A stretch of 64,000 nt of DNA from Nitrospira sp. (GTDB lineage: Bacteria; Nitrospirota; Nitrospiria; Nitrospirales; Nitrospiraceae). Where the stretch lies: the NCBI GenBank assembly GCA_024998565.1, contig JACOEM010000005.1:1-64000 (forward strand), given 5' to 3'. This document shows, in pieces, positions 7,492-60,610 of this stretch (position 1 is its first letter; every line of letters starts with the position of its first letter). Below the pieces are notes generated by a model. It made no database searches. It was not told the DNA's origin and saw only the letters and a program-made list of their open reading frames with translations. A program made the position numbers and the translations under genes.

Positions 7492-7539
7492 TAGGGAACC
7501 TCAACTCAATCGTTCACAAATGGAGAGGTAGGAGGAGTT

Positions 7540-29791: not shown

Positions 29792-29942
29792 AGCCCGGAT
29801 TATTCATGAATGCCGTCGCGAGGCGTTTGAGATCAAGGCCGACGTAGGCGTACTCGCAGTCCGTCGAGAAGGCCGAACGAGAACAGCCACGCCGGGCGAG
29901 AGGATCGGAAGACAGAGCAGGCATTCATGAATAGTTTGGGCT
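29792..29942. repeat. MITE-like inverted-repeat element, copy A
   Basis: A 151-bp unit with 23-bp ends that match at 20 positions as inverted repeats (left AGCCCGGATTATTCATGA... at 29792; right ends in TTTGGGCT at 29942). The core sequence CATTATTCATGA/TCATGAATA also bounds copy B at 57363-57488. There is no transposase gene inside. The right end supplies the last bases of the heparinase stop codon (29941-29943). The rest of the 370-bp gap between yefM and this gene holds only the yefM promoter. Confidence 0.65.
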
Positions 29943-31812
29943 ACACGAAGCGCAGACGAGTCATGAATTCATGTGGGATAGCACCGGTATATTCGACCCG
30001 TAGCGTCGTGATCGGATGCTTTGACCCATACCGTGTCGACGCCCATCCGCCCACCGGTTGCACACTGCCTTCACAGAGAGTACTCGCGCCACCTTCAACG
30101 GTGAGCAGGAGCGGGTGCTCGAACCCTTCCAAACGATACCCTCCATCCACGGGAATCGGCCGGCAACCCAAATGCCAATTGAGCTCTACCTGGTGCGTGC
30201 CGGTTCCGGTGAGCCAGTCCCAAATCATCCAGGAGCCGGGCGGCTCATACGACACCCCGCGTAAATGGGTCACGCCCAATCGATCTTTGTATCCATAGTG
30301 CCTGGCGATCACGGTGATTTTCCCTTCAGGCGTCTCATCTCTGTAAACCAGGTGGGTATCAAAGGGCCGTGACCAGGCGAGCGGACCGTCCTGCACGGCC
30401 TGATCCAGCCCATCGATGGTCACCGTATTGTGGGCACGCGTACTGCGAAAATACGTCCGCCACTCTTCATTGCCGGTGCAGGTATAAGTGCCCGGGTCGA
30501 TCAACACATCGCGCGATCCGACCTGAAGGAACAGAGAGAGCGCATCGGCATGGCCGTGCGTATACCGTGGAGCCATGCCCAATGCGCCATGATCGAAAAT
30601 CGCCTTGTCTTGCATCCGGCCGCGAATAATCGAATAGCCGGAGAGATGAAAGGTGGTCAGCCCGGGGGCATGCGGCTTGTGGGGGTGACCGAAATGCATG
30701 TACGGCGAGAGCGCCTGTTCATCCTCACCTTCCCCGATCGGCGGAAGGCTCCCGTCAATGGAGTTGCGGAACTCGTCCAGAAAATCGCGACTGCGCGCGA
30801 ACACCGGGCGGATCTTCTCCGCCACCGGCGACTGCCGATGATCGAGGAGCGCCAGCACCATCCCATAGAGATCCGTGCAAAACTGAAGGTACCCCACTCC
30901 CTGCTCCTGACTGCCGCCGTCATGACTGATGTACCGGGGAGTCTCTGCCTCCAACAGGTAATGGCCGAACGCGAGCCATCGCTCAGCCATCTCCATTTCC
31001 GGGAAAAGACTGCCGGCATAGATCAACGCCACCGCAGCCGCCAATGTGTCATGAGGGGTGGTCAAGCGAAGCGACAGGCGTTTCCGAATCAATTCCGCAT
31101 GGTCGGAAACGAGGGTCAGCACGGCAGGCCATACTCGCGCCGGGGAGAGCAACCACGGACGGAGGCCATCCATCGCATGACAGACAGCCAGCAGCCGAAG
31201 AGCGCATTCCGTCGGGGAAATATAGTGAATACCGGTCAAAAACGGATTCGCCTCCACCCAGGAGACGAGCTGTGCTTCCACCGCCGACACGGCGCCTGTG
31301 CGTGCGGCGGGTTCAGCCTGTTGCGCCAACATAGCCAGGAGCACCAGGTGCTGAAGCCGTGAGGGCTCCCACGCCATGCGAATATCCCCGCAGGAGTTAC
31401 CGGCATGAATCGGAATGTCGGCAAAAAACCGGCGCGGCCACAGGGCGCCGGTATCCGGCGCTCTATGCCAGCAGGAGCCATCGGGTTGCCAGACCCAGGG
31501 ATACCCGAACACCGTCACGACACCTTTGAGCAAGGTGTCCAGCTGTCCGTCGGCTGCCGGGAGATGCCAGGGTAAGGGCGGGAGAACAGGCGATGGGCTC
31601 GTGCAGAATGAATAGTGGGAAACATCCGGCGCGGTAAATTGCCGGTGCAGCGATCGCTTACCGAGCCCCTGCCGCAGGTGCAGCAACGAAAACAGCGCGC
31701 GTTCCCTCGCGTGGCTCCACCACTCCAAACGTCCTGGCGCAGCGAGCGCCTTCAGCGACGAGGCGAGGCGTTGGGGGAGGGCATTGGAATTGAATGACAG
31801 CGTTACGCGCAA
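29941..31812 (-). CDS. Heparinase II/III-family (alginate-lyase-like) protein
   Basis: The protein of about 623 residues has an alpha-helical toroid (about 120-370; IHYISPTECALRLLAVCHAMDGL, HDTLAAAVALIYAGSLFP, HDGGSQEQGVGYLQF) and a C-terminal Heparinase_II_III beta domain (about 390-610; GMAPRYTHGHADALSLFL, LIDPGTYTCTG, RAHNTVTIDG). The His/Tyr residues of the lyase family are present. In exopolysaccharide loci these lyases often accompany the bi-domain oxidoreductase seen here at 49756. The start is uncertain: the frame opens with TTG at 31812 just after a stop, and no good ribosome site is seen. Confidence 0.88.
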   Translation of the reverse strand: MRVTLSFNSNALPQRLASSLKALAAPGRLEWWSHARERALFSLLHLRQGLGKRSLHRQFTAPDVSHYSFCTSPSPVLPPLPWHLPAADGQLDTLLKGVVTVFGYPWVWQPDGSCWHRAPDTGALWPRRFFADIPIHAGNSCGDIRMAWEPSRLQHLVLLAMLAQQAEPAARTGAVSAVEAQLVSWVEANPFLTGIHYISPTECALRLLAVCHAMDGLRPWLLSPARVWPAVLTLVSDHAELIRKRLSLRLTTPHDTLAAAVALIYAGSLFPEMEMAERWLAFGHYLLEAETPRYISHDGGSQEQGVGYLQFCTDLYGMVLALLDHRQSPVAEKIRPVFARSRDFLDEFRNSIDGSLPPIGEGEDEQALSPYMHFGHPHKPHAPGLTTFHLSGYSIIRGRMQDKAIFDHGALGMAPRYTHGHADALSLFLQVGSRDVLIDPGTYTCTGNEEWRTYFRSTRAHNTVTIDGLDQAVQDGPLAWSRPFDTHLVYRDETPEGKITVIARHYGYKDRLGVTHLRGVSYEPPGSWMIWDWLTGTGTHQVELNWHLGCRPIPVDGGYRLEGFEHPLLLTVEGGASTLCEGSVQPVGGWASTRYGSKHPITTLRVEYTGAIPHEFMTRLRFV

Positions 31813-33183
<1,371 letters not shown>

Positions 33184-33197
33184 CGCTTAAGAAGAGC

Positions 33198-33669
33198 ACT
33201 GAGGCTGAGGTAAAAGTTCAGAGATCGATATTCGGCCAGAAAGCCTGAGCGTGAGCCATTCCTGAGGGAGAAGCGGTGTATCGCTCATTCGAGGAGATGC
33301 CGGTCTGGAAGAAAGCGATGGACCTGGCTCAACAGATATTTGCGTTGACCGAGGGGCTTCCCAAACAGGAAGACTACGGATTGACCTCACAGGTCAGGCG
33401 ATCGGCGCTCTCTGTCTCTGGGAATCTAGCCGAAGGATTTGGCCGTCATCATACAAAGGACAAGATTAATGTTTACTATGCTTCCCGTGCCTCGCTGACG
33501 GAGACCAAAAGCCACCTCATCTATGCCCAGAGGATTGGCTACCTGAAAAGGGATGATCACCGTCTCGCCCTGAAACTCATCGATGACATCTGGAAAGAGC
33601 TGAATGCGTTGATCCGTTCGCTTAGAAACAAAACTTCCCCTCAACCTTAGCCTTGACCTAAGCCTGAGT
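33198..33669. repeat. Inverted-repeat-bounded element carrying the S23 gene
   Basis: The arm at 33198-33216 (ACTGAGGCTGAGGTAAAAG) and the arm at 33651-33669 (CCTTGACCTAAGCCTGAGT) are complementary at 15 of 19 positions. They enclose the four-helix-bundle gene and split the gmd-fcl pair. The arms belong to a family also seen at 47405-47471 (arms with a 25-nt loop) and 51976-51995 (one arm). In spirochetes and Coxiella, S23 genes lie in 23S rRNA intervening sequences bounded by complementary stems; the architecture here is similar but outside rRNA. Confidence 0.55.
33276..33650 (+). CDS. S23-type four-helix-bundle protein
   Basis: The 124-residue protein is a member of the four-helix-bundle (23S rRNA intervening-sequence, bAvd-like) family: [60 protein letters not shown]. 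Family members may bind nucleic acids; no enzymatic activity is known. It starts with GTG after GAGGGAGAAGCG. Its place between gmd and fcl suggests insertion into a sugar-nucleotide operon. Confidence 0.9.
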
Positions 33670-33675
33670 TTGCCT

Positions 33676-34638
33676 ATGCCATCTTTCTTTTCGGACAAGC
33701 GCGTCGTCGTCACCGGAGGTGCCGGGTTCCTGGGTTCAGTCGTCGTGGCACAGCTCCGGGAGCAGGGCTGCCGAAGTATCTGGGTGCCCAGAAGTCAGGA
33801 CTATGATCTCGTCCAGATGGAGGCCGTCCAGCGACTGTACGACGATGCGGCACCGGACATCGTGTTGCACTTGGCGGCACGGGTCGGAGGCATAGGAGCC
33901 AATCAAGCCAATGCCGGCCGCTTCTTCTACGATAACCTCATGATGGGTACACAGTTGATGGAAGTGGGGCGTCAACGGGGGCTGGAGAAGTTTGTCGCGC
34001 TGGCCACCATCTGCGCGTATCCCAAATACACCCCGGTTCCTTTTCGTGAAGAAGATCTATGGGCGGGATATCCGGAGGAAACCAATGCTCCTTACGGTCT
34101 GGCAAAAAAGATGATGTTGGTCCAGGCTCAAGCCTACCGGCAGCAATATGGGTTTAACGCCATTGTGCTTTTTCCAGTGAACCTCTATGGTCCCGGCGAC
34201 AACTTCGACATGCAAACCTCGCATGTCATCCCGGCCCTCATCAGGAAATGTGTCGAGGCTCAAGCCAAGGGCGAGCAGCAGGTCATGCTGTGGGGAGATG
34301 GTTCACCATCGCGAGAGTTCCTCTATGTGGATGATGCAGCCCGCGCCATTCTGTTAGCGGCTGAACACTACAATGGCGACGAGCCGGTGAACATCGGAAC
34401 AGGGGAAGAGATCACAATCCAAGATCTGGCTCATCTGATCGCCAATGAGGTGGGATTCAAGGGTGAACTCGTGTGGGATACGGCGAAACCGAATGGGCAA
34501 CCCCGGCGATGCCTTGATACAAGACGCGCTAAGCAGCTGTTTGGGTTTGAGGCGGAAACGAAATTGCGAAATGGAATACAGGGGACAGTTGCCTGGTTTC
34601 ATACGAACCGGGAGTCATTTCGTGAGGTCGCATTCTAG
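33676..34638 (+). CDS. fcl: GDP-L-fucose synthase
   Basis: This 320-residue epimerase/reductase makes GDP-L-fucose from the Gmd product. It has [65 protein letters not shown], the catalytic [17 protein letters not shown] and [18 protein letters not shown]. The ATG at 33676 is preferred to a TTG 6 nt upstream. The right arm of the S23 element ends 7 nt before the start. Confidence 0.95.
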
Positions 34639-34931: not shown

Positions 34932-37900
34932 ATGAAGCATGCCTTCCAAGGATTTGACGGTAAAGACGCAATTCTCGTTTCTTTGTTCGCAATCGTCTCC
35001 GGCGTAGTGTTCTACATGATGTATGGTCTTCACGACGAAACACTTGTGAGCAGCATCAACGATGTGTGGTTTCAAAGTGATCTCAAACGAGTTTTTGAGA
35101 ACATGACAGACCGACATGCACGCGGGCACTACCGGGTCAAAGTGCACCCCCTCCATTCACTTTTCACCTTCCCCCCCACCTTGGCCTTAAGAAAACTGGG
35201 AGTTACGCCGTTCAAAGCAGTTCAAATAGTAACGGCAAGCATAGCTTCTGGATACGTAGTCGCGATGTTTCTACTACTCAGAGCACTGGGATGCATCCGC
35301 TTTGATGCCGTGGTGTTTTCCGTCCTCGGCTCGGTCAGCTCGGCGGCCTTGTTCTGGCTTTCTGTGCCGGAGTGTTATGCGCTGGGTGCGACGGGTATTG
35401 CCGTTGGTCTTCTTCTGGCGGCACTGGCGAGCGAGAAGAAACAGGCCGGATGGAAATACGTCGCGGCCAGTGCGTTCTCCCTCAGCGCCACCGTTACCAA
35501 CTGGATGACCGGGATACTCAGCACGTTCGTCGGGAACCATTGGAAACGCACAGTCGTTCTGACCGTCCTTGCACTGTCGACTGTGGCACTGTTATGGGGC
35601 CTGGAGAAACACTTTTTCCCGAACGCTGTGTTTTTTATCGGAGACCGAGAAGAGGGGCGATATCTGTTTTCTCCGACCTTTGGGCGAGTAGTTGAAGTTT
35701 TCAACACCTTCGTATTCCACACCATTGTGTCCCCGGCAGTTACCATGGCAGGAACGACTCAAACAGGGTGGCCGCTCTTGAGTATGCAATCGTCATGGCC
35801 CGGTTCGTCGGGACTACTCGGGCAAATCGGCGTGATCGTGTGGAGTCCGCTTCTAGCAATAGGGATCTGGGCTTTTTTCACTCTCAAAACCCTCGCAGGG
35901 CTTCGAATCGTTCTTGGACTGACAGTCCTCGGCCAGCTTGGCCTACACCTGCTTTACGGTAGCGAAACCTTCCTCTACGCCCTCCATTTCTTGCCTCTTC
36001 TGGTAACGGTTGCCGCTCTGGGTACACGCAGTCATCTGCGTATTCCCGCCCTTGCCCTGGCACTTGTATTGATACCCGTCGCGGGGATGAACAACTGGTG
36101 GCAATTCAATGCGGCGATCGCTCGGGCGGCGACGCCGCGCCACGAGGTCAAAACCCAAATGCGATTGCGGCCCCATGATTCCTGGCCGCGTAGCACGGGG
36201 CATGTCCTCCTGGCTTCCTCAGGTAGTCGGGAAGAACAGAAGGCTTATCACGAGCCCGGTGGCGGCTTTAGTCCAGGTGTAGGCACCTTCGGCATATCGG
36301 TATGGCTCAGTTCCCCGGACGGGAGGGAGTTCATAACAAGCGAAAACATCCCCCTTAACGATATGGTTCAATCATTTTCCTGGCGGGACAATGAACCGCT
36401 TCCCGGATTGAGAACCGTTACACCGTACTACTCTACCGAATGGACGCAATCTGATTGGGGGAAATGGCGACTCCATCTCAACCTACAGGACAATGTCACT
36501 CTCGACCCAGCGCTGCTGATCCGAAGTGCCGGCCCGGCAGGAGGGCCCATTCACAAGATGCACTGGGATGGCCACGCACTCTGGATAAATGAGCGCTGGT
36601 CAGTGACCATCCAGCCGGCTCCTACGGCTGTGAACCTCGGGGAGGAAGGGGCCTCCGACTGGCATCGAAGTGGGGATGCGGACCGAAAAGTAATCAGTGC
36701 GTCGGGATGGGCGTTTGCGCGCATACAGCTTGAGCGGGGTACACCGTGGACCATCAATGTCCATGACGCACATCCGGGCCTCCCCCCGGAGAGTGCATTC
36801 GAGCGGACCTCCGCCCAACTGAACGTGGATCTCCCAGACCCTCGGTTTCAACAGAGCCTGAATGCCCAAGCTGCGCATCTGATAATGGGCTTGGTGGGAA
36901 GAGAAACCAGACCAGGGGATCCCACAAACTATCCGCTAGCCTGGCAACGAGACGGGGCGTATGTCATAACCGCGCTGGCCAGATCAGGCAGGGTTGAGAC
37001 GGCACGCATTCTTTCAAAGGACCTTGCAGAAAGGGATTTCTTCGGCGGGTTTGGGCCGGAGGCGGATGCCCCGGGCTTGGCCCTGTGGGCGCTCAGCATG
37101 GTCGCTCGCCAGTTACGCGACCAGGAATTCGACCGCTGGTTATGGCCGCACATGCAGCGAAAAGTGGGCCTTATCGAGGAAATGCTGACTGCCACTTCAC
37201 CGATTCACAAAACGGTTGAAGGACCGATAGTGCCCAAGCATCTGGGGAAACCAGATTTGTCATTGATTGCGGAGCCTGCGCGAGACGGGCTGATCATTGG
37301 GAAAATGGATCACCATCGGCCAACACTCTTTATCAACGCCATAAGCTACCGCGGACTAGTGGAAGCAGCGGCGATGGCCCATCGCCTTGACCATCCCGAG
37401 GAGGAACGCCATTGGCTGAAGACCGCCGCAGACCTCAAAAGCAACTGGCAGAAAGCCTTTGCTACACCCCTAACAGACAATGACCGGACATACATCAGCG
37501 CGCTGTGGCCAAGCTGGGTGGCAGGTGAGCAACGTCAGACTCTCGCCGATCGTGCCGAACGCAGATGGCAGAGCCGTCGGGATGCAATTGGCAATTACAA
37601 GACGGCACCGTTGTGGACCTATTTCGAATTAGCAGAAGCGCATCAGTGGCTGTTCCTCGATCATCCGGATCGCGCATGGTCCACGATGCAGTGGTTTTGG
37701 GACCACCAGAGTTCACCCGGATTCTATACCTGGTGGGAAGGTGAGGGCGAGGAAAACTCATTTGAAAAATGGGTTCATATACGAGGATGGGTCAATCCTC
37801 CTCATGTCACGCCTCATTACTGGACTGCTGCAGAAATGGCGCTGCTCCAGATAGACATGCTTGGCTATCTCGATGAGGGAGCAACGGAGCCGGTACTCGT

Positions 37901-38102
37901 TATCGGTGGAGGAATCCCCCGAAGTTGGCTGCCCACCCCGATGGATGTCCGGGGGCTCAGAGTTGGAGATATACGTCTCGACTGGCATTGGAACGGCCAT
38001 AATATGGTGGCCGTGGTCCACGGTGAATCGCGCGTAAAGGTGAAGTTAGGGGCCAGCTTTCCAGAGACTGCAGATCTGAGGGTCACCTATCAAAACACCT
38101 GA
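34932..38102 (+). CDS. Large membrane protein with C-terminal six-hairpin glycosidase-like domain
   Basis: I do not recognise this 1056-residue protein as a whole. Residues 1-390 hold about ten TM segments and look like a GT-C/ArnT-type glycosyltransferase or related integral membrane module (for example MKHAFQGFDGKDAILVSLF and a TM near LGSVSSAALFWLSVPECYALG). Residues about 440-620 are beta-rich. Residues about 640-970 look like an (alpha/alpha)6 glycosidase fold: YPLAWQRDGAYVITALARSG, FGPEADAPGLALWALS, LWPSWVAGEQRQ, FYTWWEGEGEENSFEKW, PPHVTPHYWTAAEMALLQ. The order suggests an extracytoplasmic trimming or lyase module tethered to the membrane. Function is unknown; the fusion is unusual. Confidence 0.75.
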   Translation: MKHAFQGFDGKDAILVSLFAIVSGVVFYMMYGLHDETLVSSINDVWFQSDLKRVFENMTDRHARGHYRVKVHPLHSLFTFPPTLALRKLGVTPFKAVQIVTASIASGYVVAMFLLLRALGCIRFDAVVFSVLGSVSSAALFWLSVPECYALGATGIAVGLLLAALASEKKQAGWKYVAASAFSLSATVTNWMTGILSTFVGNHWKRTVVLTVLALSTVALLWGLEKHFFPNAVFFIGDREEGRYLFSPTFGRVVEVFNTFVFHTIVSPAVTMAGTTQTGWPLLSMQSSWPGSSGLLGQIGVIVWSPLLAIGIWAFFTLKTLAGLRIVLGLTVLGQLGLHLLYGSETFLYALHFLPLLVTVAALGTRSHLRIPALALALVLIPVAGMNNWWQFNAAIARAATPRHEVKTQMRLRPHDSWPRSTGHVLLASSGSREEQKAYHEPGGGFSPGVGTFGISVWLSSPDGREFITSENIPLNDMVQSFSWRDNEPLPGLRTVTPYYSTEWTQSDWGKWRLHLNLQDNVTLDPALLIRSAGPAGGPIHKMHWDGHALWINERWSVTIQPAPTAVNLGEEGASDWHRSGDADRKVISASGWAFARIQLERGTPWTINVHDAHPGLPPESAFERTSAQLNVDLPDPRFQQSLNAQAAHLIMGLVGRETRPGDPTNYPLAWQRDGAYVITALARSGRVETARILSKDLAERDFFGGFGPEADAPGLALWALSMVARQLRDQEFDRWLWPHMQRKVGLIEEMLTATSPIHKTVEGPIVPKHLGKPDLSLIAEPARDGLIIGKMDHHRPTLFINAISYRGLVEAAAMAHRLDHPEEERHWLKTAADLKSNWQKAFATPLTDNDRTYISALWPSWVAGEQRQTLADRAERRWQSRRDAIGNYKTAPLWTYFELAEAHQWLFLDHPDRAWSTMQWFWDHQSSPGFYTWWEGEGEENSFEKWVHIRGWVNPPHVTPHYWTAAEMALLQIDMLGYLDEGATEPVLVIGGGIPRSWLPTPMDVRGLRVGDIRLDWHWNGHNMVAVVHGESRVKVKLGASFPETADLRVTYQNT

Positions 38103-39300: not shown

Positions 39301-41277
39301 ATGGAAGCAAGACCGACAGTGCCATGCAGCGCCGAACCATACGGACCGTCATCCGTGCATGCCGGCCAAGACTCCGCGAAACGCTTGGGAAGCAGAATCA
39401 CCTCCGGGCTCTTCTGGTCGGTATTGAGTATTGCAGTGGGTAAGGGCGCAAGTCTCATCGCCCAGCTCATCCTCGGATGGCTTCTCGCCAAAGAAGATTT
39501 TGCGCTGTACGCCATCGCCATCTCCTGGTCGACCATCGTGATGGCGCTGAGAAACGGCGGGACCCAACGCCTTCTGATACAGAAGGGGACACAATATTCA
39601 GACCTGGCCGTGATGTATTTGAAGTTCGCCCTCCTGTTCAACGTCGTTGGCTTCGCGATCCTCATGGCGGCGGCTCCGATCCTCTCCGGCCTGTACGACA
39701 GTCATTCCCTGCGCGTAATGGTGTGGATTCTCGGGTTGTCGCTGCCCTTGAGTACGGCTGCCATGATTTTCCAAGCGAAACTGTCAGCCGATCTGGAATT
39801 CGCCAAGGTTTCCCGCCTGATCATCCTGTCATCGCTCGCCCGGCATGGGTCTATGGTCGTGTTTGCGTGGCTGGGCCTCGGGCCGCTGAGCTTCGTGTTG
39901 CCGCTGTGTGTCGTGGCCCTGGTGGAAACGGCGCTTGGATGGTACTGGGCTAGACGCTGGCCGCCGAACCGGCCACTGACCTGGCCTTCCATCTGTGGGA
40001 TTTTCCAGGACAGCCGGTGGGTGATGCTCACCGCATTGGCAAGTGCACTCACCATCAACGGTGATTATCTTGCAATTAGTCTCCTCCAGAGCAAAGAACT
40101 GTTGGGTGTCTATTTTTTTGGGTATCAGTTGAGCCTCGCCCTAGTGGCATTGGTCACAAGCAGCCTGGACACCGTCATGATGCCGACGTTCTCCTCCCTG
40201 GGCCACGAAACCTCTCGCCAAACGGACCTGTTTGTAAGAGGAACTCGTCTCCTTGCCGTGGTGTCGACCTTTGCCTGTTTCGGCCTTGCGCTGGCCGCTC
40301 CGGCGGCGATTCACGGTCTCTGGGGAGGAAAATGGGACGAGGCGATTCCGGTGGTGCAGATCTTGTCGCTGGCAATGCCGGTGCGCCTCATGATTCCGCT
40401 GTGTCGAGCCATGTTGGAGGCCCGCGGGCAGTGGAGGCTCGTGTCGGTCCTTTCTATATCCGACGGCATAGGGATCACTATGGCGGGCGCCGTTGGTGCC
40501 CTTGAAGCCGTCATCGTGATCTACGGGATACAGGCGGTGATGGTGGGCCTCGCCTATCTTCTGCGCTGGCAATCCGATACCCTGATTTTTGCCATGTATG
40601 GCGCCTTTGCCACGGCCATGTTCGCCCTGTTCGTCACAACTGAGCGGCGCCGTGTTCCGTTGTCTGTTTCATCGAGCGGACGTGTCCTCTCCGACACCAA
40701 ACTGGCCAGGGCAGGATTGTGGCTCAGCGATATGGCCCCGAGATTTCTGGCCGTCGTTGTGCCGTTTTTTTTGGTCGCCAATGTCTTCCTGCCCGGGCAC
40801 GTGCCAACGGATGTCGGATTCGCTGCCATCAGTCTCTTTGTGGTCGTCATGGCAGGTCCATGGTTCATGCCCCAGTATCGCTCCCATTTTGTACGAGGAG
40901 GGCTGTATGTGGGTAGCGCCTTTCTGATGTATATGGGCGAACAATCCGGCATGTCCGACATCTGGCCTATCTACGTCACTTACAATACGCTCTTGGCCCT
41001 GATTGCCCTCCTGGTGTTGTTGAGCATGCGCTTCAGCCGTGGTAATCGATTTCAAACTACACCGTTGGATTATCTGATGGTATTTTTCGCCTTGATCGTC
41101 CCCCTGCTGCCCGAAATGCGTGCCGATATGCCGACTCTGAGCATTCTGGCGGCCAAACTCATTGTGTTGTATTTCTCATTTGAACTGTTGCTCCATACGT
41201 TTACAGATCGAGTCAAGCAATTGGGGTTCCTGTCTTTATGGGTCCTATTCGGATTGGGTGTAAAGGCATGGCTCTAG
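39301..41277 (+). CDS. Wzx/MATE-type polysaccharide flippase with C-terminal membrane extension
   Basis: The first 440 residues are an oligosaccharide flippase of the Wzx type (SGLFWSVLSIAVGKGASLIAQLILG, LGWLLAKEDFALYAIAISWSTIV, RLLIQKGTQYSDLAV, MIFQAKLSADLEFAKVSRL), with about 12 TM segments. Residues 460-658 add roughly six more TM segments (FLAVVVPFFLVANVFLP, DVGFAAISLFVVVMAGPWFM, PLDYLMVFFALIVPLLPEM) with no family I can name. Normal flippases are about 480 residues, so this is a fusion or extension. It lies between the glycosyltransferase and the TPR lipoprotein. Confidence 0.8.
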   Translation: MEARPTVPCSAEPYGPSSVHAGQDSAKRLGSRITSGLFWSVLSIAVGKGASLIAQLILGWLLAKEDFALYAIAISWSTIVMALRNGGTQRLLIQKGTQYSDLAVMYLKFALLFNVVGFAILMAAAPILSGLYDSHSLRVMVWILGLSLPLSTAAMIFQAKLSADLEFAKVSRLIILSSLARHGSMVVFAWLGLGPLSFVLPLCVVALVETALGWYWARRWPPNRPLTWPSICGIFQDSRWVMLTALASALTINGDYLAISLLQSKELLGVYFFGYQLSLALVALVTSSLDTVMMPTFSSLGHETSRQTDLFVRGTRLLAVVSTFACFGLALAAPAAIHGLWGGKWDEAIPVVQILSLAMPVRLMIPLCRAMLEARGQWRLVSVLSISDGIGITMAGAVGALEAVIVIYGIQAVMVGLAYLLRWQSDTLIFAMYGAFATAMFALFVTTERRRVPLSVSSSGRVLSDTKLARAGLWLSDMAPRFLAVVVPFFLVANVFLPGHVPTDVGFAAISLFVVVMAGPWFMPQYRSHFVRGGLYVGSAFLMYMGEQSGMSDIWPIYVTYNTLLALIALLVLLSMRFSRGNRFQTTPLDYLMVFFALIVPLLPEMRADMPTLSILAAKLIVLYFSFELLLHTFTDRVKQLGFLSLWVLFGLGVKAWL

Positions 41278-41300
41278 GAGTGAGACAACCAGTGCATCGT

Positions 41301-43718
41301 ATGTTCCCCATGACCGGACTCCAGCCTGCCCCCCGCAGGCTGGTCACCATCATCATCGGGCTGGCGTTGATACTCACCTCGTCGGCCTGTGGGGGCCCGC
41401 AGGAGCGCAAGGCCCAATACCGCGCCAAGGCGCAGGATTACATCCAGGCGGGGAACTTTCCGAAGGCCCGTGTAGCATTGCGAAACGTACTGAAGATCGA
41501 TCCCAAAGACGCCGACGCCTATTTTATCGTGGCACAGGTCGAAGAAAAGGAAGAGAACTGGCGCAATGCGGTCGCCAACTACCAGCAGGTCATCGATATC
41601 GTACCGGACCACAAAGAGGCCCTCATTATCTTGGCCAAGTACTACCTCGAGGCCAAACTCGCGGATGAGGTAGGGCGGACGGCCGACAAGGTTCTCAAAA
41701 AACATCCGCAAGACCCACAGGCCCAGGCCCTGAAGATCGCCTTGCTCGCGCAGCAGGACAAGATGGATCAGGCGATGGTCCGGGCGGAGGAACTCAGTAA
41801 AAAGTACCCGACCGAGCCGGATGTCGCAATTCTCCTGGCCACGCTATATGGTCAGAACCATCGCTTGCAGGATGCTAGAGCGACGTTGCAACGTGCACTC
41901 CAGGCACATCCACATCACCTGGATCTCCTGCACAATTTGAAAACTATCCTCGTCGAAGCTCACGACGACAAGGCCACGGAGCAGGTGTTGCGCCAGATCA
42001 TTCAGGAAGAGCCCACGATATATGACCATCGGCTGAAACTGGCCAGATTTTTCGAACAGCTCAAGGCGACTGATCAGGCCGAAGCCGTGCTGCGCGACGC
42101 GCTCAAGGTGTTCCCTGAGAACGACCAGGCCTGGTTGGCCTTGGCTGATTTTTTAAACATGCGCCGGGGAAAGGAGGCAGCACGGGTTGCACTTCGACAA
42201 GCTGCCGAACTGCTGCCATATTCGACTCAAATACCATTCGCATTGGCAGCGCTGTATGAGTCTCATAAGGATCTCGCGGAAGCCAAGCGGGTCTATGAAA
42301 CACTTGCGAAGGACTACGTCAGGAAGCCGGCGGGGTTGGATGCGGAGGTCAAAATCGCACAGCTCGACTTCCACGCCGGACGTCAGGCGGAAGCCGAGCA
42401 ACGACTGTCGGAAGTCTTGCGGCAGAATCCTCGTTCGGCTCAGGGATTGATCCTGCAGGGAAAGATGGCCTTGATCGGACGAAACGGCAAGGACGCGGTG
42501 CAAGCATTTCGGACGGTGCTTCGCGATCAGCCGGAACTCGCCCATGTGCAGTACCTGCTCGGCCAAGCGTACTTAATGACGGGTGACTCATCGTTAGCCC
42601 GTGAGAGTTTCGAACGGTCCGTGGCACTTCAGCCCAGTCTGGTCGAGGCTCGATTCGCTCTGGCTATGATGGAGAGTCGAAGTGGACAACCGCAAAGCGC
42701 CAGGGCGCGCTTGAAGGCCATCCTGACATCTCATCCCGATCATCGGGAGGCGATGGAGCTCTTGTTCGGTTTGGACCTTGCGGCCGGAGATTGGAATCAC
42801 GCCGCGTCGATTCTAAGTCGCCTACGGCAATTGCAGGGAGAAAGCGCCGCTGTCCTTATGGCGGAGGGTAGATTATTCGAGAGCCGCAAGGATTTTGCCG
42901 GGGCCATCGCGGCCTATGAGCGTGCGGCGACAATGGCAGTCGATGCTCAGGGACCTCTGGTGGCCGTCATCCGACTCGATCTTCAACAGAAGCAACCCGA
43001 ACGTGCAAGACGCCGCCTAGAGGGTATCATTGCCGCACATCCCAATCATCCCTACGCCCATGGCCTGATGGGAGAAGTCTTGACCCTCATTGGACGGCGG
43101 GATTCGGCCATGGCCCAATTCCGTGAAGCGATCAGAATCAATCCGCGCTGGCTCACCCCTTGGCTGGACGCGGCGACACTCTCAATGGCACAGGGACAGG
43201 CAGACAACGCGGTTCGAACCCTGAAAGAGGGCTTAACCGCAAACCCCGCCAGTGAAGAGTTACACATGTTGTTGGCGTCCGTGTTGGCGAGCCAAAATTC
43301 AGTTGATGAGGCCATTGCGGCCTATGACGCCGTACTCCGCATGAATCCGCGCAATATTTTCTCGGCCAACAATCTGGCGGCACTGTTGGCGGATCACAAA
43401 CACGACGCGCCGAACCTGGAGCGTGCGTTTTTGTTGAGCCGTGAATTCGAAAAAGACGCCCCGTACCCACTGTTTCTCGATACGCTGGCATGGGTGCGAC
43501 TAAAAATGGGGCATCTCGAAGAAGCGCTACGCATCATGCGACAAGCGATTGTGAAAGCCCCGGATCTCCCGACACTTAATTACCACCTTGGCGCGGCGCT
43601 CTATCAGTCGGGCCGAAATGTGGAAGCCAAGGTGTATCTCGCAAAAGCGCTCAAGAGCACAGAACAATTCCAAGGGCGACGTGAAGCGCAAGAATTGTTC
43701 GCCCGAACGAGCGGATAG
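41301..43718 (+). CDS. TPR lipoprotein of PEP-CTERM/XrtA-type exopolysaccharide loci (PrsT-like)
   Basis: The 805-residue protein begins with a lipoprotein signal peptide (MFPMTGLQPAPRRLVTIIIG..., lipobox SSAC). More than fifteen TPR units follow, for example ALRNVLKIDPKDADAYFIVAQ and AYDAVLRMNPRNIFSANNLAA. The ATG at 41301 gives a normal signal peptide; the frame opens upstream at 41238 inside the flippase gene. Length and position match the PEP-CTERM system TPR lipoprotein PrsT. It probably assists assembly or export of the polysaccharide. Confidence 0.82.
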   Translation: MFPMTGLQPAPRRLVTIIIGLALILTSSACGGPQERKAQYRAKAQDYIQAGNFPKARVALRNVLKIDPKDADAYFIVAQVEEKEENWRNAVANYQQVIDIVPDHKEALIILAKYYLEAKLADEVGRTADKVLKKHPQDPQAQALKIALLAQQDKMDQAMVRAEELSKKYPTEPDVAILLATLYGQNHRLQDARATLQRALQAHPHHLDLLHNLKTILVEAHDDKATEQVLRQIIQEEPTIYDHRLKLARFFEQLKATDQAEAVLRDALKVFPENDQAWLALADFLNMRRGKEAARVALRQAAELLPYSTQIPFALAALYESHKDLAEAKRVYETLAKDYVRKPAGLDAEVKIAQLDFHAGRQAEAEQRLSEVLRQNPRSAQGLILQGKMALIGRNGKDAVQAFRTVLRDQPELAHVQYLLGQAYLMTGDSSLARESFERSVALQPSLVEARFALAMMESRSGQPQSARARLKAILTSHPDHREAMELLFGLDLAAGDWNHAASILSRLRQLQGESAAVLMAEGRLFESRKDFAGAIAAYERAATMAVDAQGPLVAVIRLDLQQKQPERARRRLEGIIAAHPNHPYAHGLMGEVLTLIGRRDSAMAQFREAIRINPRWLTPWLDAATLSMAQGQADNAVRTLKEGLTANPASEELHMLLASVLASQNSVDEAIAAYDAVLRMNPRNIFSANNLAALLADHKHDAPNLERAFLLSREFEKDAPYPLFLDTLAWVRLKMGHLEEALRIMRQAIVKAPDLPTLNYHLGAALYQSGRNVEAKVYLAKALKSTEQFQGRREAQELFARTSG

Positions 43719-43730
43719 GAGTCGTGAACC

Positions 43731-44342
43731 ATGCAGCTGAGTTTCAAGATCGTTCAGAGAATTACGTTAGGATTGCTCATAGGAATGTTTCTGACTGCCA
43801 CTGTAAGCTGCCAATCCGCTGACGTGCGCGGGGCCTCTCAGGAGGTATCCAATTCCGACCAGGGGTACCAGCTCGGCCCTGAAGATGTCCTGCTCATTTC
43901 CGTCTGGAAAGATGAGCACCTGACAAGAGAGGTGGTCGTCCGGCCGGATGGCATGATTTCTTTTCCACTGGTCGGAGATGTCTCGGCCGAAGGTCGAACG
44001 GTGGAGGAACTGCGCATAGACCTCGCCAAACGATTGATTAAATATATTCCTGCCGTCAACATCACGGTGGCCGTTCTCAAACCGCTGAGTTACAAGGTCT
44101 ATGTCGTAGGACGGGTAGCGAAGCCCGGCGAATTCCTGGTCGGCCACTATACCGATGTCCTTCAAGCTTTGAGCCTCGCCGGCGGATTGACCCCCTTTGC
44201 GGCGGAAAACGATATCAAGGTCGTGCGCCGGGTCATGGGACAGCAGCAGACCTTTCCGTTCCGGTACGGTGATGTGCGGAAGGGCATTGATCTGGAACAG
44301 AATATCATCTTGCAGCGCGGCGACGTCGTGATGGTGCCGTAA
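43731..44342 (+). CDS. Polysaccharide export lipoprotein (Wza/OPX family)
   Basis: The 203-residue protein has a lipoprotein signal (LLIGMFLTATVSC), a Poly_export domain (about 45-125; YQLGPEDVLLISVWKDEHLTREVVVRPDG and FPLVGDVSAEGRTVEEL) and one SLBB-type domain (about 130-200; VYVVGRVAKPGEFLVGHYTDVLQALSLAGGLTPFA). It is shorter than Wza (about 380 residues). It probably forms the periplasmic/outer-membrane part of the export channel. AGGAG precedes the ATG. Confidence 0.92.
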   Translation: MQLSFKIVQRITLGLLIGMFLTATVSCQSADVRGASQEVSNSDQGYQLGPEDVLLISVWKDEHLTREVVVRPDGMISFPLVGDVSAEGRTVEELRIDLAKRLIKYIPAVNITVAVLKPLSYKVYVVGRVAKPGEFLVGHYTDVLQALSLAGGLTPFAAENDIKVVRRVMGQQQTFPFRYGDVRKGIDLEQNIILQRGDVVMVP

Positions 44343-45593: not shown

Positions 45594-47363
45594 ATGCAGG
45601 ACCAACAACGGTTGCAGGACTCAGAATCCTCTGTGACCCTTCAGGATTACCTCAAGGTAGTTCGTCGAAGAAGCACAATCATTCTGCTCGTTGCGGGACT
45701 TTTTCTGACCTTGAGCATCGCTGCGGCTATGCTGTGGCCGCCGACGTTTAGGTCTACCGCCACCATTCTGATCGAAGAACAAGAAGTGCCTGCAGAGTTG
45801 GTCCATAGCACCATTACGAGCTACGCCGATCAGCGGATCGAAATGATCAAACAACAGGTGATGAGCCGCTCCAGCCTTTGGAAGGTCGTGGAGCAGTACA
45901 ATCTGTATCCCGAAATGAGACGCGACAACCCCACCGAAGGGGTCATCAAACGTTTCATCAAGGACATCGAAGTTGAAGTCATCAGCGCCGATGTGATCGA
46001 CAAACGGACGCAACATCCGACCAAGGCCACCATAGCCTTCACTGTTTCCTATAATAGCGGATCGCCTGAAACGGCCCAACGGGTGGCCAATGAGTTGACG
46101 AGCCTGTTTCTCGGCGAGAATCTCAAAAGCCGCGAACGGCAGGCGCAGGAAACCACCACGTTCCTCAAGCAGGAGGCGGAGAGCCTCGCGGCCCATATCG
46201 AAGAGGTTGAAGCCAAGTTATCCAAGTTCAAACAACGAGCGGCAGGTGCGTTGCCCGAGTTAATGCCCCTGAATCTCCAGATGATGAACCAGGCCGATCG
46301 TGAACTGATGGACCTCGACCAGCAAATTCGCAGCCTCGAGGAACGCAAGTCGTATCTTGATGGGGAACTGGCAACCATCAAGCCGAATACCCCCATCCTC
46401 TCCGTCACGGGAGAACGTATCCTCGATAGCGTAGAGCGGTTGCGCGGGCTCAGGGCCGAATACGCCGGAGTGGCCGCGAATCTTTCACCCGATCATCCGG
46501 ACGTGATTAAGATGAAACAGGAAATCACAGCGCTGGAAAGGGACACCGGTGCGAACCCGGAAACCGAAGAGATCGCCAAACAATTGACCGATGCCCGGGC
46601 CAGGCAGGCCACGCTCGCCGACCGCCTCGGGCAGGATCATCCGGACGTGCTCCAGACGAAACGCACGATCGTCGCGCTGGAACGGGAATTCCGCCGGATC
46701 GGCACCAGTGCCGGCAACAAGCCGTTGCAGCGACCGGAGAATCCGGCTTACATCAATATCCAGGCTCAACTCAATTCTGTGAATTCTTCCCTGCAAGCCT
46801 TGAAAACCAGTCGCGCGACCGTCAAACATAGGCTTCAAGATTATGCGCAACGCATTGAGCGGACACCGGCACTGGAACCGGACTATTTGACGCTCGCGCG
46901 CGACCGCGACACCTCCTCTCAAAAGTACCAGGACATTCGCTCCCGGCTTCTGGAAGCAAAGGTGTCGGAGGGCCTCGAAGTTCAGCGAAAGGGCGAGCGA
47001 TTTTCTCTTATCGATCCGCCGGGACTGCCGGAGTCGCCCGAGAAGCCCAACCGGAAAGCTATTGTGCTGTTGGGATTCATCCTGGCGCTGGCGGGAGGAG
47101 CGGGGGCCGCCGCGCTCACGGAGCATCTCGACCATTCAATTCGTACCCCTGAACAACTGGCGCGAGTGTCGCAGGCCTTCCCCCTGGCGGTCATTCCTTA
47201 CATGCCCAATCGGGCAGATCTGGCTCGTGCACTCGCCAGAAGAAACAGGATTCGTCTCGCGGGCCTGGGAACGGTGGCCCTGTTGTTGCTCATCTGCCAT
47301 CTGTTTTGGACCCCGTTAGATGTGGTGTGGTACGCAGCGCTTAGAAAATTCGGTATCGAGTAG
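45594..47363 (+). CDS. Wzz/GumC-type chain-length and export protein
   Basis: The 589-residue inner-membrane protein has TM1 (about 28-49), a large coiled-coil periplasmic domain (about 55-500) and TM2 (about 565-583). Visible are the Wzz motif (TFRSTATILIEEQEVPAELVHS) and long coiled-coil segments with two repeats (LSPDHPDVIKMKQEITALER and LGQDHPDVLQTKRTIVALER). Its C-terminus (WYAALRKFGIE) has only one Tyr and no Tyr cluster. It partners the CpsD-type kinase downstream. Confidence 0.9.
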   Translation: MQDQQRLQDSESSVTLQDYLKVVRRRSTIILLVAGLFLTLSIAAAMLWPPTFRSTATILIEEQEVPAELVHSTITSYADQRIEMIKQQVMSRSSLWKVVEQYNLYPEMRRDNPTEGVIKRFIKDIEVEVISADVIDKRTQHPTKATIAFTVSYNSGSPETAQRVANELTSLFLGENLKSRERQAQETTTFLKQEAESLAAHIEEVEAKLSKFKQRAAGALPELMPLNLQMMNQADRELMDLDQQIRSLEERKSYLDGELATIKPNTPILSVTGERILDSVERLRGLRAEYAGVAANLSPDHPDVIKMKQEITALERDTGANPETEEIAKQLTDARARQATLADRLGQDHPDVLQTKRTIVALEREFRRIGTSAGNKPLQRPENPAYINIQAQLNSVNSSLQALKTSRATVKHRLQDYAQRIERTPALEPDYLTLARDRDTSSQKYQDIRSRLLEAKVSEGLEVQRKGERFSLIDPPGLPESPEKPNRKAIVLLGFILALAGGAGAAALTEHLDHSIRTPEQLARVSQAFPLAVIPYMPNRADLARALARRNRIRLAGLGTVALLLLICHLFWTPLDVVWYAALRKFGIE

Positions 47364-47404
47364 GAGCAGGATGGTGAAAACGCCCACCAGCTTTCTCAAA
47401 GGTT

Positions 47405-47471
47405 TAGGCTCAGGCCGAGGCTGAGATTGCAAGAGTCTGCTGAGCTCACTCTTGACCTCGACCTCAGCCTA
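47405..47471. repeat. Inverted-repeat arms without an S23 gene
   Basis: The arms TAGGCTCAGGCCGAGGCTGAG (47405-47425) and CTTGACCTCGACCTCAGCCTA (47451-47471) pair at 16 of 21 positions around a 25-nt loop. They are similar in composition to the arms of the S23 element at 33198-33669. They lie in the gap before the CpsD gene. Confidence 0.5.
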
Positions 47472-47488
47472 GCATGAAAGGGATTACC

Positions 47489-48313
47489 ATGGAATGGTTT
47501 CAAGCTGCGCTTGATCGATACAAACAGCAACAACACCAGGGCCATGCCGCTCCTAAGCCCGAACGTACCCACTCCATGCGATCCGTGCCGGCCCCTATCG
47601 TCTACACACGTACGCGATCGGTACAGGTTCCCGAGCCGGTGTTGCGTGAACAGCGCATTATGGCCGGATTCGACGCCGGGCCATTCGTAGATGCCTTCAA
47701 GATTTTGCGCACACAAGTCATGCATCGGATCCGGGAAAAAGGCTGGAATGTCATCGGCGTGACCAGCCCGGGCGAGGGGGAGGGAAAGACCTTCACCGCG
47801 GTTAATCTGGCCGCCAGTCTGGCCATGGACGTGACGCAATCCGTGCTGCTGGTCGACGCGAATCTCCGGCACCCCAGCGTGCATGAGATGTTCGATCTGG
47901 GTGAGTGCCAGGGACTGGCCGACTATTTGCTGGACGATGTGCCGATCGAACAATTACTGGTGCATCCCGGTATCGGCCGCTTCGTTCTTCTGCCCGGAGG
48001 ACGGGCTGTGTCGCACTCGGCGGAAGCATTGACGTCACCGAAGATGTTGGCCCTGGTCGAGGAGTGCAAGCACCGCTACCAATCGCGTATGATCCTGTTC
48101 GACCTACCGCCGCTCTTGAAGACCTCGGACGTCCTGGCTTTTGCACCCCATCTGGACGCTCTTTTGTTGGTGGTGGAAGAGGGGCGTACAAAAGCGGAAG
48201 ATGTGGAACGAGCGCTATCGCTCATCAAACCGTCGACACCTGTGCTGGGGACGGTCGTCAACAAAGTGGGCCACGCGACGGCCACGCCGGCGACCATGAA
48301 GAGAATGATATAG
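47489..48313 (+). CDS. CpsD/CapB-type tyrosine autokinase (XrtA-associated)
   Basis: The 274-residue P-loop protein has the Walker A variant SPGEGEGKTFTAVNLAA, Walker A' LLVDANLRHPS and Walker B MILFDLPPLL. It would sense or control Wzz and polymer length. The ATG at 47489 follows AAAGGG. The C-terminus (VGHATATPATMKRMI) has no Tyr cluster, unlike canonical CpsD/Wzc kinases, so autophosphorylation on C-terminal tyrosines is doubtful. The N-terminal 60 residues are polar (RYKQQQHQGH). Confidence 0.85.
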   Translation: MEWFQAALDRYKQQQHQGHAAPKPERTHSMRSVPAPIVYTRTRSVQVPEPVLREQRIMAGFDAGPFVDAFKILRTQVMHRIREKGWNVIGVTSPGEGEGKTFTAVNLAASLAMDVTQSVLLVDANLRHPSVHEMFDLGECQGLADYLLDDVPIEQLLVHPGIGRFVLLPGGRAVSHSAEALTSPKMLALVEECKHRYQSRMILFDLPPLLKTSDVLAFAPHLDALLLVVEEGRTKAEDVERALSLIKPSTPVLGTVVNKVGHATATPATMKRMI

Positions 48314-48320
48314 GCCATCG

Positions 48321-49721
48321 ATGTATAAAAGCTTCTACCGCCTCCACAGCAAACCGTTCTCGCTGCTGCCGGACAGTGAGTTTCTCTATCTTGGTTCGAC
48401 TCACCGCACCGCCTACAGCCTGTTGGAGTACGGCCTCCTCACCGAAGCCCCATTCATGGTGCTGACCGGCGATCCCGGAATGGGTAAGACCTCGCTGCTT
48501 CAAAAATTGATCGCGGATACCCGCGACGCCTTTTCGATCGGCTTCCTCACCAATGCCCGCTACGATGTGGATCATCTGCTGCCGTGGATTCTCTTTGCGC
48601 TTGGTCTGAATAACAAACAAGTCGATCCGGTCGAAGCCCAGCATCTCTTCGCCAATTTTCTTGCCCAGGAAAGGGCACGACACCGGCGGGTGGTACTGAT
48701 CATGGACGAGGCGCAAAATCTGGGCGTCAAACTACTCGAGGAGTTGCGGTTGCTCTCCAATTTGAATCAGGAAAAGACGCTGCAACTACAAATTATCCTC
48801 TCCGGCCAGCCGGATCTGCAAACACTCCTGCGCCGGGTCGATATGACCCAGTTCGCGCAGCGGGTCGTGGTCGATTACCATCTGCAACCTTTCACGGAGG
48901 AAGAAGTCGCGCACTATATTCGCCACCGTATCCAGCTCGCAGGATCGACGCAACCGCTCTTTAGCGCCCCGGCTTGTGCCTTGACCTACCGTTTGAGCCA
49001 GGGAAATCCACGTTTGATCAACCAAGTGTGCGAAATGGCCTTGACCTATGGGTATGCGCAGCAGGCCGCGCGGATCACCGCGAAACTGCTGGCGCAGGCG
49101 GCGCTCGATCGACGAAAGAATCGAATCCTGCCGCTGGCGGAACTGGACGATCTGGAAGAGCTCGCGGCAGGGAAGGATGCGGAGGAGCCCGATGCACAGG
49201 AATCCATCGCGCACTCTCTGCCATCGCGTGAGTCTCCACCGCAAATCGAGAGCCAACAACCTGTCGGCGCGGCAGAACCCTACTATCAGCGGGGAATGAC
49301 GCTCCGGAAATCTCAGGACTATATCGCCGCGATCGCCCAGTTCGAGCAGGCCGCACGCGACCCGGCCTACCACCTTCGGGCATTTGGACAGATCGGGCTC
49401 TGCTACCGGGCGCTTGGTCTTGTCCCCCAGGCCGTGGCGGCATTTCGAAAGGCCTGCACGGATTACAGCGCGCCGCGCACGCAAAGTTTAAGCGTACGGT
49501 ATCTGTTGGGGCGAACCTTGGAACAGTTGGGAGAAAAACCGGAGGCTCTTGAGCAATATCGCCTGATTTTCCGCACCGACCGGACTTTCAAGGACACGGC
49601 CGTTCGCCTCTCAAGTCTGGAAGGGGATCAGACCCGCGAGGCAGGGCAGCCGGGTACCCACTCCTGGGGATTCGGACAAGCCTGGAAACACGTCCGGCAG
49701 TTGCTGAAGGGAAACAGTTGA
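48321..49721 (+). CDS. XrtA-associated AAA ATPase with C-terminal TPR
   Basis: The 466-residue ExeA/GspA-like ATPase has MYKSFYRLHSKPFSLLPDSEFLYLG, Walker A GDPGMGKTSLLQ, Walker B VVLIMDEAQNLG and sensor SGQPDLQTLLRR. About 170 further residues with TPR-like repeats end it (AEPYYQRGMTLRKSQDYIAAI, ALGLVPQAVAAFRKAC). It resembles the PEP-CTERM-associated ATPase family TIGR03015. A paralogue at 52071 is frameshifted. It lies 7 nt after the kinase gene. Confidence 0.88.
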   Translation: MYKSFYRLHSKPFSLLPDSEFLYLGSTHRTAYSLLEYGLLTEAPFMVLTGDPGMGKTSLLQKLIADTRDAFSIGFLTNARYDVDHLLPWILFALGLNNKQVDPVEAQHLFANFLAQERARHRRVVLIMDEAQNLGVKLLEELRLLSNLNQEKTLQLQIILSGQPDLQTLLRRVDMTQFAQRVVVDYHLQPFTEEEVAHYIRHRIQLAGSTQPLFSAPACALTYRLSQGNPRLINQVCEMALTYGYAQQAARITAKLLAQAALDRRKNRILPLAELDDLEELAAGKDAEEPDAQESIAHSLPSRESPPQIESQQPVGAAEPYYQRGMTLRKSQDYIAAIAQFEQAARDPAYHLRAFGQIGLCYRALGLVPQAVAAFRKACTDYSAPRTQSLSVRYLLGRTLEQLGEKPEALEQYRLIFRTDRTFKDTAVRLSSLEGDQTREAGQPGTHSWGFGQAWKHVRQLLKGNS

Positions 49722-57362: not shown

Positions 57363-57488
57363 AGCCCGCATTATTCATGACGGTTCGTCGCGAAATTGTC
57401 GAGCCACGTCGCGAGACCGGCGGCCGAAGGCTCGTCGCAGCAGCGGATCGGCGATTGCAGCAGAAGCGCTCATGAATAATGCGGGTTA
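57363..57488. repeat. MITE-like inverted-repeat element, copy B
   Basis: A 126-bp unit with perfect 16-bp inverted ends (CCCGCATTATTCATGA and its complement) that extend with one mismatch to about 19 bp. The left end, AGCCCGCATTATTCATGA, differs at one base from the left end of copy A. There is no coding sequence. Its right end coincides with the ppx stop codon (57486-57488). It fills most of the 293-bp gap between convergent sixA and ppx and could also act as a bidirectional terminator. Confidence 0.75.
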
Positions 57489-59708: not shown

Positions 59709-59728
59709 GGTCGGGCTCCTCCCGCGAT

Positions 59729-60592: not shown

Positions 60593-60610
60593 GCGTAATC
60601 CTTTCTGTGA

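Follow-up and report, generated by a model that had tools for sequence, protein, structure and literature searches.

The window considered in this work is a 64,000-nucleotide stretch of a Nitrospira sp. genome (assembly GCA_024998565.1, contig JACOEM010000005.1, positions 1 to 64,000), and our subject is a gene at 34932-38102, here called P0001, in which a membrane part with the predicted fold of GT-C glycosyltransferases is joined to a glycosidase-like module (Table 1). A sequence-only reading of this DNA had described one 1056-residue protein with about ten transmembrane (TM) segments, a beta-rich region and an (alpha/alpha)6-like domain, combining transferase-like and six-hairpin glycosidase-like halves. 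The exact open reading frame (ORF) was confirmed, and the membrane region is real, although the model gives 11 helices instead of about ten. The beta-rich and (alpha/alpha)6-like parts appeared both in the model and in fold matches, and structure comparison of each region backed the division into two such halves.

The AlphaFold2 model of P0001, built with 27 homologous rows, has a mean pLDDT (predicted local distance difference test) of 81.2 and a pTM (predicted template modelling score) of 0.70. Residues 10-399 form 11 membrane-length helices with an outer loop after helix 1. By DSSP, strands at about 425-633, in a beta-sandwich of about residues 421-636, are followed by the (alpha/alpha)6 domain at 638-977 and by C-terminal strands up to 1054; the loop at 939-947 has low pLDDT. 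Comparisons with VIA-align showed that the membrane part (about 6-404) resembles GT-C enzymes, with Z scores of 19-22 across about 320-360 residues: ALG12 (9s6t, Z 21.8, root-mean-square deviation 3.5, 321 residues aligned), Pmt1-Pmt2 (Z 21.1), ArnT (Z 19.7) and AftB (Z 19.3), as well as oligosaccharyltransferase. Residues 421-1056 resemble six-hairpin glycosidases and phosphorylases at Z 20-24, the best match being 5z3c (Z 23.6). Bacterial glucoamylase 1lf6 (GH15, Z 21.8, 477 aligned) matched across 418-984, whereas GH65 7fe3 (Z 22.6) and GH94 1v7v (Z 20.4, 520 aligned) matched over most of 421-1056, where the GH65/GH94 order of beta-sandwich, (alpha/alpha)6 and C-terminal beta domains is present; the best Foldseek match of the module was a dextran dextrinase. 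From the odd helix number and the usual GT-C orientation, we infer that the GT-C site and the module both face the periplasm.

At the sequence level, P0001 had no significant match in Pfam, NCBIfam or Protein Data Bank (PDB) sequences, in agreement with the sequence-only reading, which could not assign it to one family. None of these searches gave a family spanning the whole protein, an outcome that the sequence-only reading had named as refuting its proposal. The GH15 model PF00723 reached 14.1 bits at residues 664-690, under its gathering score of 22, no GH65 or GH94 family was returned by Pfam at E <= 0.1, and a GT84-type profile did not match P0001, whose transferase half is GT-C by fold.

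The source genome carries two full-length P0001 paralogues (42% identity) on other contigs, and full-length homologues with the same domain order, whose search had been proposed from the sequence, occur in many other Nitrospira genomes, in cyanobacteria (Leptolyngbya, Scytonema, Brasilonema, Kaiparowitsia and Calothrix, 45-49% identical) and in a proteobacterial metagenome-assembled genome (40% identity). A scan of the relatives' contigs with the single P0001 protein returned nothing, and a profile scan recovered the homologues. The presence of paralogues and of full-length homologues in other phyla indicates that the fusion is neither a chance event nor a mis-assembly. We found no description of a GT-C enzyme fused to a glycosidase in the open-access literature; the architecture is widely shared and apparently undescribed so far, a variation on those GT-C enzymes that carry additional outer domains.

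The cyanobacterial and proteobacterial homologues are closer to P0001 than the Nitrospira paralogues are, and we refer to P0001 with the former as class A and to the Nitrospira paralogues as class B. Trees of the GT-C and glycosidase halves agree on the main groups: P0001 with UBC2, the filamentous cyanobacteria, and a single class B clade. Each of the nine full-length class A rows, which come from three phyla, retains six acidic residues of the module (D674, D793, E936, E940, E941 and E968), so that the C-terminal part of P0001 does not lack candidate catalytic acids; such a lack is what the sequence-only reading had named as fatal to its proposal. The candidates for the GH15 acid and base sites are D793 and E936. 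By the register of the fold-match ranges, E936 would fall near the catalytic base of GH15-type enzymes, although in a poorly modelled loop. A profile of the class A module had no significant match among PDB sequences.

In class B, all 15 rows have Gln in place of D674, Gly in place of D793 and Leu in place of E968, and E936 and E940 are replaced by mixed non-acidic residues, also in 15/15; the E941 site holds a mixture that includes scattered Asp and one Glu. Despite this loss, W671, R673, D702, E710, D712, W947, W953, P961, Y963 and D975 are fixed in class B. The class B model retains the fold (best Z 21.7, with the cyclic glucan synthase entry 8rf0 in the fold list), and two stretches, model residues 448-483 and 525-551, turn low-confidence in it. 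Pairwise ratios of nonsynonymous to synonymous substitution (dN/dS) in class B were 0.07-0.19 for the (alpha/alpha)6 domain, low and similar to those of the GT-C half (0.13-0.17), so that the module is not decaying. Judging from these sequence comparisons, the basic job of the module is probably polymer binding, and only the class A module may also cut the polymer; the simplest reading is that class A has, or had, a catalytic job in addition to binding.

A more restrictive possibility, which we consider unlikely, is that the glycosidase-like half never cuts and serves in both classes as a platform for the acceptor polymer, like the carbohydrate-binding modules (CBMs) of Emb proteins, AftD and GT136. 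It would account for purifying selection on class B modules that have lost the class A acids, and it has precedents in GT-C enzymes with C-terminal binding domains (PMC11127046) and in the cyclic glucan synthase, whose GH94 domain is needed as a scaffold and whose catalytic acid is nearly dispensable (PMC10901819). However, it leaves the six acids, unbroken in class A full-length rows across Nitrospirota, Cyanobacteria and Proteobacteria, to be explained, and the class B branch is long in the glycosidase tree (1.37 changes per column, vs 0.6 for the GT-C half), as expected from a released enzymatic constraint.

The two halves also occur apart. A proteobacterial contig (L056) carries them as neighbouring ORFs separated by 22 bp, of which the second runs off the contig; this is the only case that we counted as natural fission, since draft-sequence frameshifts may account for the breaks in L043 and L050 and for the division of L054/G018 into two frames that overlap. 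The GT-C half stands alone in cyanobacteria and Nitrospirota, and the glycosidase module has a homologue (hhalign E 6.7e-18) in the C-terminal half of a secreted-looking protein with an F5/8C domain (L019:145-3234, Nitrospirota genome G250). L015 was rejected as a functional stand-alone glycosidase: it is N-terminally truncated, has unrelated neighbours, has lost E936 and lies in a genome without the phosphoribosyltransferase fusion. An N-terminally truncated class A glycosidase half, 57% identical, stands by itself in G149 (L085:9054-10328) and looks like a remnant. In L059, a stand-alone proteobacterial GT-C gene is preceded, at a distance of about 1.5 kb, by a 617-residue ORF (6583-8436) that resembles a GH15/trehalase-type protein by eye. 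The P0001 gene has a G+C fraction of 0.558, similar to that of its neighbours, and we therefore make no claim of recent horizontal transfer from composition.

Pfam has no model for the family of the GT-C half: the other homologues scanned in Pfam, stand-alone members included, matched no glycosyltransferase family above cut-off, and L048 matched DUF6080 at E 0.0046, below cut-off. Its signature is [WF]Fx2D50x2R53..H66YR68x2VH72P (also written [WF]Fx2Dx2RV...HYRx2VHP). D50, H72 and F347 are invariant in the 20 GT-C rows of alignment A7, and R53, H66, R68 and P73 nearly so, while D50, R53, H66, R68 and H72 are unchanged in all fused rows. D50, in 20/20 rows, is the conserved acidic residue that characterizes the first extracytoplasmic loop of GT-C enzymes.

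The genes accompanying this family point to its donor. Upstream sequence is available for five fused loci of cyanobacteria, and in four of them the two genes ahead of the fused gene encode a decaprenyl-phosphate phosphoribosyltransferase and a HAD phosphatase; in L032, L033 and L060 the pair consists of an NF008978 match above cut-off and a YqeG-like HAD phosphatase, and L034 likewise has the pair. Among stand-alone GT-C genes of the cyanobacterial group, six of eight adjoin a phosphoribosyltransferase (L083, L086 and L092, with the HAD gene; L087, L088 and L090). In the Nitrospirota genome G274, a stand-alone GT-C gene (405 aa) and a fused HAD-phosphoribosyltransferase gene are separated by about 2.6 kb, with a PMT_2 GT-C-type gene between them. 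Moreover, among 295 Nitrospirota genomes the GT-C half had a clear match in 16 (one a fragment), and all 16 carry the HAD-phosphoribosyltransferase fusion above cut-off, compared with 13 of the remaining 279 (Fisher p 6.5e-19, a value that overstates independence, as the genomes are related and 14 of the 16 belong to one genus). The source genome has its own fused HAD-UbiA gene (L063:790-2298; NF006088, 669 bits, cut-off 351). This linkage and co-occurrence make a polyprenyl-phosphate pentofuranose a probable donor, and since no DprE1-type (PF04030) or GMC oxidoreductase was found in the source genome, ribofuranose is the simplest donor sugar; by this comparison of loci, the GT-C half in this organism probably uses polyprenyl-phosphate ribofuranose. 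Two candidates were rejected: as a phosphoribosyltransferase, a UbiA-like gene near L084, a weak match (about 48 bits) that resembles a quinone-pathway prenyltransferase, and, as a conserved partner, the GMC oxidoreductases near some cyanobacterial loci and the G274 locus, which are mutually only distantly related.

The GT-C half might instead use a lipid-linked hexose or another sugar, the phosphoribosyltransferase neighbours concerning the cyanobacterial relatives only. Such a donor would suit the gmd and GDP-fucose-synthase-like genes just upstream, a window in which no phosphoribosyltransferase adjoins P0001, and the presence of GT87, another GT-C family, beside class B genes and one cyanobacterial member. 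Nevertheless, GDP-deoxyhexoses and similar nucleotide sugars serve as donors for Leloir enzymes, and the locus has a GT4 gene for such a role. The phosphoribosyltransferase linkage is independent in cyanobacteria and G274 and complete at the level of genome co-occurrence, and we regard a hexose donor as unlikely.

A probable pentofuranose donor and an outer domain bring P0001 close to enzymes described elsewhere. In Citrobacter youngae, ORF15 (PRP-PPPRS), a MATE flippase and a GT136 GT-C with a C-terminal carbohydrate-binding domain were shown biochemically (Kelly et al. 2024, PMC11127046); the arrangement yields undecaprenyl-phosphate ribofuranose, which the GT136 enzyme uses. P0001 shares with GT136 (ORF12) an 11-helix GT-C part followed by a beta-rich C-terminal domain, predicted for P0001 to be periplasmic, a likeness of architecture and partner genes. 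The HAD-phosphatase/phosphoribosyltransferase fusion has the same domain order in the source genome, and in cyanobacteria separate UbiA and HAD genes are adjacent. Unlike the Citrobacter system, P0001 ends in a glycosidase-like module of about 640 residues rather than a CBM, and the Nitrospira gene has no neighbouring phosphoribosyltransferase. The mycobacterial EmbA/B/C, AftA, AftB and AftD proteins share the GT-C fold and polyprenyl-phosphate pentofuranose donors (predicted for P0001), but Emb and AftD have carbohydrate-binding domains where P0001 has the glycosidase-like module, P0001 has no match to the Pfam families of these arabinofuranosyltransferases, and its genome lacks a DprE1-type oxidase.

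For the module, the fold, the domain order and the GH15-like WxRDG motif recall GH15 glucoamylase and dextran dextrinase and the GH65/GH94 phosphorylases, from which P0001 differs in its fusion to a membrane transferase, in having no significant sequence similarity to them and in the loss of acids in class B. The cyclic beta-1,2-glucan synthase Cgs (GT84 + GH94) also joins a glycosyltransferase and a six-hairpin domain in one membrane polypeptide, and its GH94 domain, which trims and scaffolds the product, controls length and acts as a scaffold even when catalytically dead (PMC10901819). Cgs thus provides a precedent for coupling transfer to trimming, although its GT84 part is a cytoplasmic UDP-glucose enzyme, its GH94 domain is cytoplasmic and no sequence relation to P0001 was found. 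That the C-terminal module is not a hydrolase but a phosphorylase or transglycosylase (GH94/GH65/dextran-dextrinase-like) that sets chain length or moves a glycosyl unit is improbable, for despite the GH94/GH65 domain order over 421-1056, the dextran dextrinase match and the length-control domain of the cyclic glucan synthase (PMC10901819), GH94 requires free phosphate and is cytoplasmic in that synthase, whereas the P0001 module should face the periplasm, and candidates for both acid and base are present in the GH15 fashion.

Taking these data together, we propose that P0001 is a periplasm-facing, two-module enzyme of exopolysaccharide (EPS) assembly, with chances that we see as about even. 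The fused HAD-phosphatase/phosphoribosyltransferase encoded elsewhere in the genome would make polyprenyl-phosphate ribofuranose, the lipid-linked pentofuranose would be flipped outward across the membrane, and the GT-C half would move it onto an exported polysaccharide, growing or finished, or onto its lipid-linked precursor. The beta-sandwich and (alpha/alpha)6 module would grip the polymer close to the GT-C site. The class A module would also trim, by hydrolysis or transglycosylation of a terminal sugar through an acid/base mechanism; in class B it would bind only. The sequence-only reading had suggested that the protein may couple transfer or export to trimming of the polymer, and it had not pointed to the probable donor, a polyprenyl-phosphate pentofuranose. 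A coupling of transfer to trimming by P0001 is plausible and may exist, but export is the work of neighbouring genes and not a property of P0001. As class B lacks the acids and is yet under purifying selection, cutting is no likelier a role for the module than binding or positioning the polymer.

Several observations weigh against this proposal. No solved glycosidase matched the glycosidase module significantly in sequence (PDB profile search, sub-threshold PF00723), and the candidate base is placed at or within a loop of low confidence, so that hydrolysis is not established. On the donor side, no phosphoribosyltransferase is adjacent in the window or in the Nitrospira fused loci read, the link within Nitrospira is one of genome-wide co-occurrence only, mostly within one genus, and L048, L089, L091, L084, L059, L061 and L046 have no phosphoribosyltransferase next door. 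A stronger version of the proposal, which we put forward tentatively, is a self-editing assembler, in which the GT-C half would add pentofuranose outside the membrane, the fused half, of a new glycosidase family, would remove or rearrange terminal sugars of the same chain, and a paralogous lineage would have decayed to a binding platform.

The sugar-nucleotide and export genes anticipated around P0001 are indeed present, gmd and the GDP-fucose-synthase-like gene upstream and the export genes downstream, where the genes are closely spaced (Table 1). The MOP-type flippase may be the donor flippase or instead a Wzx. As in XrtA/PEP-CTERM loci, the downstream genes include those for PrsT, polysaccharide export, chain length, tyrosine kinase and ATPase functions, and the genome has an exosortase; unlike in those loci, most neighbours score under equivalog cut-offs and the exosortase lies on another contig. 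The UBC2 orthologue neighbours gmd-like, flippase, Wzy-like and glycosyltransferase genes, and within a few kb of the proteobacterial homologue L046 there are an exosortase gene and EPS genes. Class B genes sit in other contexts, several beside a GT87 GT-C gene. This GT87 gene (L052:8138-9499 and L093:7781-9142, and also in L045, L055, L040, L041, L044, L047 and L054) is divergently oriented beside the genes of one class B subgroup; a further copy, at L083:9600-10883, adjoins the stand-alone GT-C gene of the cyanobacterial-group genome G490, and the copies are about 40% identical across phyla.

Table 1. Features of the P0001 gene and of its surroundings in the window
Feature	Position	Strand	Basis or remark
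Heparinase II/III-like gene, flanking the EPS locus	29941-31812	-	
gmd, GDP-mannose 4,6-dehydratase	32173-33183	+	TIGR01472, 555 bits, above cut-off
23S rRNA-intervening-sequence / four-helix-bundle protein, between gmd and the fucose-synthase-like gene	33276-33650	+	PF05635
GDP-L-fucose-synthase-like epimerase/reductase	33670-34638	+	NF047922, 307.5 bits, under equivalog cut-off 500
Fused gene P0001	34932-38102	+	1056 aa, ATG start, no internal stop
GT-C glycosyltransferase domain (predicted), residues 1-405, 11 TM helices, first loop periplasmic	34932-36146	+	Fold matches, family alignment
Asp50, candidate GT-C catalytic base, loop after TM1	35079-35081	+	Conservation
Linker and super beta-sandwich, residues 406-636	36147-36839	+	DSSP of model; aligned with N-terminal beta domains of GH15/GH65/GH94
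(alpha/alpha)6 glycosidase-like domain, residues 637-981	36840-37874	+	Fold match; homologous secreted module L019
Asp674 of WxRDG motif, GH15-like sugar-binding Arg-Asp; Gln in class B	36951-36953	+	Alignment; weak PF00723 match 664-690
Asp793, candidate general acid; Gly in class B	37308-37310	+	Alignment; position inferred
Glu936/Glu940/Glu941, candidate general base loop WWEGxGEEN; set lost in class B	37737-37754	+	Alignment
Glu968 in PHYWTAAEM, class A only	37833-37835	+	Alignment
Small C-terminal beta domain, residues 982-1056	37875-38099	+	Model and fold comparison
GT4 glycosyltransferase, 31 bp downstream of P0001	38134-39285	+	PF00534
MOP-type flippase	39301-41277	+	PF13440, 128 bits
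PrsT-like tetratricopeptide-repeat (TPR) protein of XrtA/PEP-CTERM systems	41238-43718	+	TIGR02917, 312.6 bits, cut-off 312.2
Polysaccharide export protein, Wza/EpsY-like	43731-44342	+	PF02563
XrtA-type chain-length determinant, tyrosine kinase and ATPase genes	45594-49721	+	TIGR03007, TIGR03018, TIGR03015, below cut-offs
Two XrtA-associated ATPases, TIGR03015-like, with TPR tails	48321-49721 and 52219-53496	+	
Fused zinc-dehydrogenase / GFO-IDH-MocA oxidoreductase, flanking the EPS locus	49756-51906	+	
Phosphate-regulon cluster: Ppx/GppA, PhoU, ABC ATPase, permease	57486-62377	-	

Few systems with GT-C enzymes that add pentofuranoses have been elucidated, and these only recently; the family to which P0001 belongs, spanning Nitrospirota, Cyanobacteria and some Proteobacteria, has no Pfam model. 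Our data lead to the prediction that ribofuranose-type side chains would be found on the polysaccharides of nitrifiers and of biofilm cyanobacteria. In addition, the coexistence of a catalytic-looking class A and an acid-less class B, both conserved, offers a natural experiment on what glycosidase-like domains joined to transferases may do.

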